A stretch of DNA of 64,000 nucleotides from Halalkalibacillus sediminis. GTDB taxonomy: Bacteria; Bacillota; Bacilli; Bacillales; Alkalibacillaceae. The stretch's first letter is position 1. The number at the start of each line of letters is the position of its first letter. A program made the translations under genes and the position numbers. The notes under the pieces were generated by a model. It was not told the origin of the DNA, did no database searches, and was given only the letters and a program-made list of their open reading frames with translations. The DNA is taken from positions 194,074 to 258,073 of the forward strand of contig NZ_PJNH01000004.1 of the NCBI RefSeq assembly GCF_002844535.1, in the 5' to 3' direction. Below are positions 3,536 through 4,675 of the stretch, one piece after another.

Positions 3536-4093
3536 GTGAGTAGAAAATTGAAAGTGGTAGGAATCAGTGGAAGTTTACGTGAAGATTCCTTTAATAGAAA
3601 ATTATTAGAGTTGGCTGCGTCAAAGCTTCCAGAAGAAGTGGAATATGAGTATGCAGACTACTCGGACGTACCTTTATTTAACCAAGACACCGAAAATCCA
3701 ATGCCGAAGTCGGTTATGGATTTTAAAGCGACGGTGGATTCTGCAGATATCTTATTGTTCAGTACACCCCAGTACAACGGGTCCATTCCTGGAGTTTTGA
3801 AAAATGGTATTGATTGGTTGACTCGACCGTACGGGGAAAACTCATTGAGTGGCAAGGTTGCTGGTGTAATTGGAGCGACTCCAGGAGGAACTGGAACAAT
3901 CAATGCTCAGGACCATCTCCGAGAAATCTTGAGCTTCATCAACGTGCTAGTTCCGCCACACCCTAGAGTGTTTGTTAGCGAAGTTCATAATAAAGTGGAC
4001 GAACAAGGCGACTTACAACTCGGGGATCAGATTGAGACCTCATTAATCAACCAACTTGAAAAACTCGTCGAGCTAACGAAAAGCGCTGTATAA
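3536..4093 (+). CDS. NAD(P)H-dependent FMN reductase / azoreductase family
   Basis: This cytoplasmic flavoprotein of 185 residues belongs to the NADPH-dependent FMN reductase family (flavodoxin fold, usually about 180 residues). The FMN phosphate loop SGSLREDSFNRKL is at residues 11-23, and TPQYNGSIPGVLKNGIDW at 77-94 contacts the isoalloxazine ring. Members reduce flavins, quinones, azo dyes or chromate; the true substrate cannot be read from sequence. GTG 3536 follows AGGAGG by eight bases. It is monocistronic, ending at a strong terminator. Confidence 0.88.
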   Translation: MSRKLKVVGISGSLREDSFNRKLLELAASKLPEEVEYEYADYSDVPLFNQDTENPMPKSVMDFKATVDSADILLFSTPQYNGSIPGVLKNGIDWLTRPYGENSLSGKVAGVIGATPGGTGTINAQDHLREILSFINVLVPPHPRVFVSEVHNKVDEQGDLQLGDQIETSLINQLEKLVELTKSAV

Positions 4094-4097
4094 ATTG

Positions 4098-4126
4098 ATC
4101 GCTCCCATGCTTGGGGGCGATTTTTT
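4098..4126 (+). terminator. Terminator of the FMN reductase gene
   Basis: ATCGCTCCCA and TGGGGGCGAT pair around a short loop and are followed by six T. It begins five bases after the stop codon. Confidence 0.9.
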
Positions 4127-4127
4127 C

Positions 4128-4223
4128 ATACTTTAAGAAAGTTTAACTTTGTTTAAGGATTAAAGTATGTGAAAAACAAAGGCTTTCGCCATTAGGACTT
4201 GGCGATAAGCCAAGTTTTTCTCA
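4128..4223 (+). repeat. 96-nt structured repeat, copy 1
   Basis: This unit is 92 of 96 bases identical to 4489-4584; the last 58 bases are identical. It folds as two hairpins: ATACTTTAA pairs with TTAAAGTAT, and GTGAAAAAC plus GGCTTTCGCC pair with GGCGATAAGCC plus GTTTTTCTCA. It lies directly after the FMN reductase terminator and before the ileS leader. No open frame. Confidence 0.85.
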
Positions 4224-4289
4224 TCATTTTTTTGAGTTCTTATAGGATAAAAATAGTTTTTCCTGTTATAATGAAAACGTGAGATTTTG

Positions 4290-4675
4290 ACACGAACTTA
4301 TGAACATTGTAATATATTTGAAAGCAAATACAATTATTCGTTGAAGAGAAGAGTAGACTGTTATGTAGTCTTCAGAGAGTCACCGCAATGCTGGAAGGTG
4401 ATGGCTGCTTATGGTTGAAGATCATCTCGGAGAAGTTTGGCTGAAGTTTTCAGTAAGCTGGACCGGTTAGGAGCCGTTATCTTTTTTTATACTTTAAGAT
4501 TGTTTAACTTTGTTAAAGGGTTAAAGTATGTGAAAAACAAAGGCTTTCGCCATTAGGACTTGGCGATAAGCCAAGTTTTTCTCACAAGTGCTATAGGTTG
4601 AAACCTATAGAATTTGGGTGGTACCGCGGAAATTCATCCGTCCCTATTTATATATTTAGGGACGGTTTTTTTATG
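4290..4675 (+). promoter_or_regulatory. T-box leader of ileS (isoleucine-responsive)
   Basis: Stem I elements run from the AGAGAGTCACCGCAATGCTGG region (4374-4394) to the specifier loop GAAGATCATCTCGG, where ATC (4421-4423, repeated at 4424) is an isoleucine codon. CCGGTTAGGAGCCGTTATC follows. The T-box proper, TTTGGGTGGTACCGCGG (4613-4629), binds the uncharged tRNA acceptor end. The terminator CCGTCCCTA/TAGGGACGG with T7 spans 4639-4673. Uncharged tRNA-Ile should favour the antiterminator and switch ileS on. Unusually, a 96-nt repeat is inserted between the stem I region and the antiterminator. Confidence 0.93.
4489..4584 (+). repeat. 96-nt structured repeat, copy 2, inside the ileS T-box leader
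   Basis: Second copy of the two-hairpin unit at 4128-4223, in the same orientation and 361 bases downstream. Here the first hairpin is more perfect (ATACTTTAA/TTAAAGTAT with inner TTTAAC/GTTAAA). It sits in the linker between CGTTATC (end of the conserved 5' T-box part) and the antiterminator helix, and seven T precede it. The second hairpin is followed by GTTTTTC and could itself pause or end transcription. Confidence 0.85.

Follow-up and report, generated by a model that had tools for sequence, protein, structure and literature searches.

A 95-nt two-hairpin repeat of Bacillales, probably a small mobile element, that stands behind terminator-like T-runs

We analyzed a window of 64,000 nucleotides from Halalkalibacillus sediminis (contig NZ_PJNH01000004.1, positions 194,074 to 258,073 of the forward strand). 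Near its start, an FMN reductase-like gene is followed by a T-box leader and a gene for a second isoleucyl-tRNA synthetase, and two copies of a short repeat lie in this region, one behind the upstream gene and one inside the leader (Table 1). The synthetase scored best against MupA and MupB (1310 and 1305 bits, both below the cut-offs of 1900 of these families) and reached 973 bits with TIGR00392, above the cut-off. The other isoleucyl-tRNA synthetase of the genome (C1:376681-377343) shares 36% identity with the window protein. Over 233 residues, the window protein is 93% identical to that of a genome from another family (G026), versus 77% to its closest counterpart within the family (Filobacillus, G002), and acquisition of the window ileS by horizontal transfer is possible judging from these sequences. 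A lysine riboswitch also lies in the window, at positions 331-509 of the minus strand.

Table 1. Features around the two repeat copies, in window positions.
Feature	Position	Strand	Basis or remark
Upstream FMN reductase-like gene	3536..4093	+	Weak matches, all below cut-off; copy 1 stands behind its terminator
Intrinsic terminator of the upstream gene, landing site of copy 1 (hairpin 4097-4122, T-run 4121-4126)	4097..4126	+	11 pairs, 6 GC
Element copy 1, 95 nt, T-ACTTTAAG to TTTTTCTCA	4129..4223	+	Repeat match, copy comparison, model R2 (120 bits)
T-box leader (RF00230), lengthened by copy 2	4332..4648	+	Rfam
Terminator-like landing site of copy 2: short hairpin CGGTTAGGAGCCG (4464-4476), TTATC, seven T (4482-4488)	4464..4488	+	Letters, terminator scan
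Element copy 2, 95 nt, within the T-box leader	4490..4584	+	Repeat match, copy comparison, model R2 (118.8 bits)
Presumed T-box stem III hairpin, directly after copy 2	4591..4610	+	Inverted repeat, leader fold
T-box terminator hairpin and T-run	4638..4672	+	Inverted repeat, leader fold
Second isoleucyl-tRNA synthetase, MupA/MupB-like IleRS2 type, 1028 aa	4699..7785	+	Profile matches

A preliminary description of this DNA, made from the letters, had reported two near-identical two-hairpin units at these places, the downstream one inserted into the ileS T-box leader, and our analysis confirmed each of these points. Spaced 361 bases apart, the two are direct repeats of like orientation and match at all but 4 of 96 positions. 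The raw repeat match is longer (103 nt at 95%; 4121-4223 and 4482-4584) and includes the T-run in front; the limits of the 95-nt unit come from comparing it with further copies and with empty sites, and we assign the T-run to the target and not to the element. Copy 2 follows the stem II region, whose end is CCGTTATC (4474-4481), and precedes a hairpin taken to be stem III; it is upstream of the T-box sequence and the antiterminator. Its joints read CCGTTATC-TTTTTTTA on the left and CAAGTGC on the right. The RF00230 match is 317 nt long here, versus 225 and 254 nt in two orthologous leaders, neither of which contains the element: that of G026 runs uninterrupted from CCGTTACC to GAGTGC and stem III, and that of Filobacillus likewise has no element. 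The site that copy 2 entered resembles a weak terminator, with a 5-pair hairpin, TTATC and seven T. In the predicted fold of the leader, copy 2 forms two separate hairpins. The earlier proposal that it might give the riboswitch a pause, a second terminator or a processing site found no support: a consensus terminator scan did not call its hairpin 2, which is weak evidence either way.

Across copies, the consensus order is Y-ACTTTAAG, hairpin 1, a short A-rich link, hairpin 2, GTTTTTCT and then CA or AA, with CA as the last two bases in H. sediminis and mostly AA in Salirhabdus (G010), G227 and Metabacillus. The ends, YACTTTAAG on the left and TTTTTCT(C/A)A on the right, are not inverted copies of each other. 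Both window copies were more stable than all of 200 shuffles (z-scores of −5.36 and −5.45). The loop and arms of hairpin 2 are much conserved across genera, and the arms of hairpin 1 change together in Metabacillus, from ACTTTAA/TTAAAGT to ACTATCA/TGATAGT. The stems covary by two counts. With the structure drawn on one sequence and counted on a MAFFT alignment of 32 sequences, 93.9% of cells paired (90.5% in shuffles) and 20 cells had changed on both sides (6.0 in shuffles), but further pair types showed no excess (17 versus 16.1). The second count, on 95 model-aligned rows, overstates covariation because that alignment is fitted to the structure and holds antisense echoes and related rows; it gave 92.6 versus 86.2% pairing, 99 versus 18.3 two-sided changes and 57 versus 35.6 pair types. 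Additionally, G-U mismatches exceeded A-C mismatches (74 versus 40; nominal p = 0.0019, the rows being related, with eight echoes and the ambiguous first pair left out). Since G-U outnumbers A-C on the strand that reads from terminator to element, folding, whether of RNA or of single-stranded DNA, probably takes place on this strand.

We investigated the distribution of the unit in the genome and in the order. Scoring 40 of 63 first-look candidates in the H. sediminis genome gave 40 matches at E values of 1.1e-44 to 3.2e-30, far beyond chance, namely the two window copies and 38 further ones, all full or nearly full, on both strands and 90 to 100% identical to the query. A 41st row (E = 4.4e-4) was an antisense echo of one of these copies; with one more copy found at locus L108, the genome holds at least 41. 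None of the 40 lay wholly within an open reading frame of 70 aa or more, and 2 of 21 Salirhabdus copies lay inside a 72-aa frame that is probably spurious. The flanks of copies are unrelated (27% ungapped identity), and the H. sediminis copies are up to 99% alike. Mean identity was 0.898 within H. sediminis and 0.932 within Salirhabdus versus 0.857 between the two; the element sequence is genus-specific. BLAST found matches in 13 of 40 genomes, H. sediminis included, and an exact 51-nt pattern occurred in 13 stretches of named genomes (Filobacillus milosensis, Salirhabdus euzebyi, Metabacillus halosaccharovorans, M. niabensis, an uncultured Metabacillus, Bacillus sp. J37 and Bacillus sp. SA1-12). 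Covariance model R1, applied at E values up to 0.001, found the unit in 43 of 136 genera of the order and in 81 of the 397 genomes sampled; ten candidates were scored per genome, so that copy numbers are floors. Phages, plasmids and viral contigs gave no match by blastn with one query each or by the exact pattern. No Rfam family exceeded its gathering threshold (best sub-threshold match, 18.3 bits versus 45), and we found no description of the family in open-access PMC full texts. These results bear out the earlier suggestion of a structured, dispersed and probably mobile element without a gene of its own. Neither of the two outcomes named beforehand as refuting it appeared: by Rfam, the element is inside a T-box at none of the 39 other copy loci scanned in this genome, and the unit is neither confined to this place nor devoid of compensatory changes.

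To describe landing sites, we scored the 50 nt in front of BLAST-found copies, using a query without any part of the T-run, for a run of at least four T and for a hairpin in front of that run with a free energy of −5 kcal/mol or lower. In Salirhabdus, where 21 of 22 listed places were scored, a T-run preceded all 21 copies and a T-run with hairpin 20. The corresponding numbers for H. sediminis were 33 and 23 of 39, so that six copies had no run of four T in front and 16 lacked the combination. The controls were far lower: random flank positions gave 33 and 8 of 400, and downstream flanks read inwards 7 and 2 of 61. Among the 87 sense rows from the model search, which span genera, 76 had a T-run and 61 a hairpin as well; models R1 and R2 hold three T columns and model-found copies lean slightly to T-runs, a bias of which the two BLAST-found sets are free. 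Column by column, positions −7 to −2 of the target hold T and position −1 usually A or G. Its main conserved feature is the T-run, the hairpins in front having no common sequence. On the right flank, T at +1 (19 of 21 Salirhabdus copies) and A at +3 (29 of 39 H. sediminis copies) are biases that we cannot explain. The upstream gene was co-oriented with the element at 33 of 40 H. sediminis and 19 of 21 Salirhabdus loci, and ended 14 to 64 nt before it in 34 of these 52 cases. Some copies stand behind RNA features: directly behind T-box leaders at L070 and L143 and behind the SRP RNA at L048. At L153, the copy is 22 nt beyond a T-box match but points in the opposite direction. At L144, one element follows another without a gap, attached to its right end; this arrangement was seen once. 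Comparison of these flanks with the control positions thus shows a landing preference for the T-run of intrinsic terminators.

The landing rule changes how the window pair is read. The pair itself is real, as first reported; what the preliminary description had overlooked is that its members are separate insertions into sites of one type, with a T-run following a hairpin. We rejected a composite transposon bounded by the two copies, as each has its own terminator-like site and nearly all others stand alone. A T-box module was also rejected, given that one of 41 H. sediminis copies lies within a T-box and that the two orthologous leaders lack the element. That the copy inside the leader was kept for changing ileS regulation would agree with its position and with its predicted independent folding there. 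However, it is one of at least 41 copies, most of which follow the same landing rule, and the sole T-box copy among the 41 found, and the gene encodes a second synthetase, in front of which an insertion may be tolerable; we consider such a role highly improbable.

Insertion history could be followed in one genus (g47), in which BLAST found 14 matches in G227, four in G270, five in G095, one in G153 and none in four species; model R1 added one weak match in G126, one of these four. For two G227 copies, the element is also present at the orthologous G270 place, and a third shared pair is older and eroded, from which it follows that insertions differ in age. The flanks of eight other G227 copies were compared with four sister genomes. 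Six of these eight loci correspond to contiguous empty sites in G270 with, by eye, the same terminator hairpin. Of the remaining two, L169 has about 310 nt of other sequence at the G270 site, including by eye a stretch like the G095 element variant, and L152 gave only one short weak G270 match. The clearest case is L179, where the empty site reads ...GCTTTATTTG then TGTATTTAATT and the filled one ...GCTTTAATTG, the element and TGTATTTAATT. At L178, L179, L181 and L182, insertion of YACTTT...CTAA accounts for the filled and empty sequences without any duplication beyond one base; at L178 this requires two or three substitutions where the flanks meet. At L172 and L175, divergence around the joint is too great for a short duplication or deletion to be excluded. 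Because there are no scars and some sister species lack BLAST matches, the polarity would be gain and not loss.

Several of these observations would also be expected of a functional structured RNA, that is, a regulatory or stabilising 3'-end module selected behind terminators and spread by duplication and gene conversion. Both hairpins carry compensatory changes, hairpin 2 is conserved across genera, the G-U excess is what folding of the terminator-to-element strand predicts, and G324 and G305 carry the element behind the same terminator. But single-stranded DNA folding would yield the same G-T excess, the eight species of one genus differ in their BLAST matches, from none to 14, six sites are filled in one species and empty in its sister, and no single neighbor gene occurs at more than 16 of 145 loci. 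We regard this explanation as distinctly unlikely. The reading that we favor, and consider likely to be right, is that the unit is a small non-autonomous mobile element of 95 nt and two hairpins, with oriented insertion behind T-runs, preferably those of terminators.

As to how it moves, the comparisons above show insertion in one orientation and without target duplication, usually one or two bases behind the T-run. Its right end, hairpin 2 plus TTTTTCT(C/A)A, has the same layout as the target, and a further element may join behind it. An enzyme acting on one DNA strand could thus recognize a hairpin with a T-run both as the right end and as the target, and the same enzyme would join the target to the left end, as IS200/IS605-type HUH transposases do. 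Three features, namely hairpin ends that differ, no duplication and a right end resembling the target, make single-strand, HUH-like strand transfer our tentative first choice among possible chemistries. An IS608-like guide role for the A-tract between the hairpins, by pairing with the target T-run, was not supported, as T-runs precede seven of nine copies without the tract. Most insertions behind terminators would do little harm, which would let copies accumulate in number. Copy 1 presumably followed this rule, landing behind the terminator of the upstream gene, and copy 2 would have struck a terminator-like position within the T-box leader that precedes the spare ileS gene.

We searched for a mobilizing enzyme among known families. 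Y1_Tnp had no match in six copy-bearing genomes (G000, i.e., H. sediminis, G002, G005, G113, G191 and G368). In a set of 20 genomes chosen by copy number and not at random, among which drafts may miss genes, it matched in 11 of the 14 copy-bearing genomes picked and in all six copy-poor or copy-free ones. It also matched in 10 of 13 genomes with BLAST matches to the element versus 13 of 27 without. By BLAST, none of 24 Y1 loci carries the element, and model R2, run on 20 of them, gave weak matches at one only (L094; E = 0.05 and 0.07). Hairpin ends that are unequal, no duplication and oriented insertion behind a short target are all to be expected if an IS200/IS605 Y1 or RAYT transposase, since lost from some hosts, had moved the element as a REP- or PATE-like unit, and the high frequency of Y1_Tnp among copy-bearing genomes agrees with this. 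The association is nevertheless weak, considering the copy-poor, copy-free and BLAST-negative genomes that have Y1, the Y1 loci carry no copy by BLAST, and H. sediminis copies are up to 99% alike despite the missing Y1 match; we therefore consider this explanation rather unlikely, though the least so of the alternatives.

Reverse transcriptases were searched for in the same 20 genomes, among others. Group IIC (bacterial-C) introns are ribozyme retroelements, kilobases in size, with a reverse transcriptase, and an enzyme of this type acting in trans might move the element. RVT_1 had no match in seven copy-bearing genomes (G002, G227, G270, G113, G167, G112 and G191), and the two matches of H. 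sediminis are DRT9 and UG17 defense reverse transcriptases (L108:1183-2721 and L116:1276-3283, contig C4). We rejected the latter as partners: they are defense enzymes, and the element near one of them (L108) stands, by eye, behind a terminator-like hairpin like others. UG17 is accompanied by an RT-associated SLATT protein, and the second reverse transcriptase locus lies about 9.5 kb beyond the end of the window. Bacterial-C introns are described as inserting directly behind rho-independent terminators (PMC8919778), and their landing site and orientation are those of the element, which likewise makes no target duplication. Insertion behind a terminator applies to most copies of the element, not all; a ribozyme core and a reverse transcriptase do not apply, as 95 nt leaves no room for a group II ribozyme, Rfam gave no match above threshold and the element also occurs in genomes without an RVT_1 match. 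Movement by group IIC-type enzymes is accordingly very unlikely in our judgment.

IS110 matched in 7 of 10 genomes and was not found in G005, G113 and G368; G113, although copy-bearing, had no match to Y1_Tnp, RVT_1 or IS110. The search for IS91 Y2 gave no match in any control genome. Clustering of 615 open reading frames beside copies at 145 loci, which include some duplicates of one place, revealed no recognizable transposase among the 20 largest clusters; the largest, by eye an ABC-type transporter family, occurred at the 16 loci noted above. No longer, gene-bearing relative of the element was found. A right-end-only match at L171 was considered as the end of a longer element and dismissed: the next gene is by eye a methionine sulfoxide reductase, and no transposase was seen. 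Because none of Y1_Tnp, RVT_1 and IS110 is present in all copy-bearing genomes examined, either an enzyme of another kind acts, or different enzymes serve, or hosts lose the enzyme after a burst. We tentatively entertain the first in the form of a chromosomal 95-nt element with a terminator-like right end that enters terminators throughout the order and might be moved by a widely conserved, perhaps host-encoded, enzyme reading a hairpin with a T-run, and not by the usual dedicated transposases.

Repeats of this general kind are already known from the Bacillus cereus group and other Bacillus. The nearest known kinds are bcr1-bcr3, REPs and group IIC introns; the Bacillus repeats were compared by description. 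The bcr1-bcr3 repeats of the B. cereus group belong to a bcr set of 100-400 bp that is described as restricted to that group, and the excerpts at hand, on which this comparison by description rests, do not mention terminator targeting for them. Bhal-1 (74 bp, B. halodurans) and Bant-1 (72 bp, B. anthracis) are intergenic stem-loop repeats for which the consulted part of PMC2267715 lists no function; by description, they resemble the element as small intergenic repeats. REP sequences are small hairpin repeats, mostly downstream of coding regions, and thought to be moved by HUH transposases (PMC3733652). With IS200/IS605-derived REP and PATE units, the element shares hairpin ends, a short target and the lack of inverted terminal repeats and of target duplication (four of six empty sites resolve well). 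In contrast to such palindromic elements, it has no GTAG or CGTC tag, measures 95 nt versus their 20-40, takes a terminator T-run as target and occurs in some genomes without a Y1 gene. A MITE of a DDE transposase was rejected, since there are no terminal inverted repeats and none of the four well-resolved empty sites calls for a duplication of more than one base.

Although small interspersed repeats are common, this element offers a tractable case for how gene-less elements move, combining a clear structural target, empty sites in a sister species, order-wide spread and no obvious enzyme. Insertions aimed at terminators may do next to no damage, an argument already made for group IIC introns, and a much smaller element would here have arrived at the same solution. 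Its copies also place direct repeats and additional hairpins downstream of many genes, and they can enter attenuators such as T-boxes, where terminators belong to control.

Some copies depart from the common form. At L027, L063 and L075, hairpin 2 has turned into a fuller palindrome (e.g., CTAAGGC...GCCTTAG), as though one arm were a copy of its partner, and at L054 (G005) a copy is split within hairpin 2 by 59 nt of other sequence. A second element lineage, present at L164, L165, L168, L174 and L176 (G095 and G153) and at L238, has a different right half (AAGCGCAACTAGGCC...GGCAAGTTTTCTTTA) with a similar left hairpin and T-run target.
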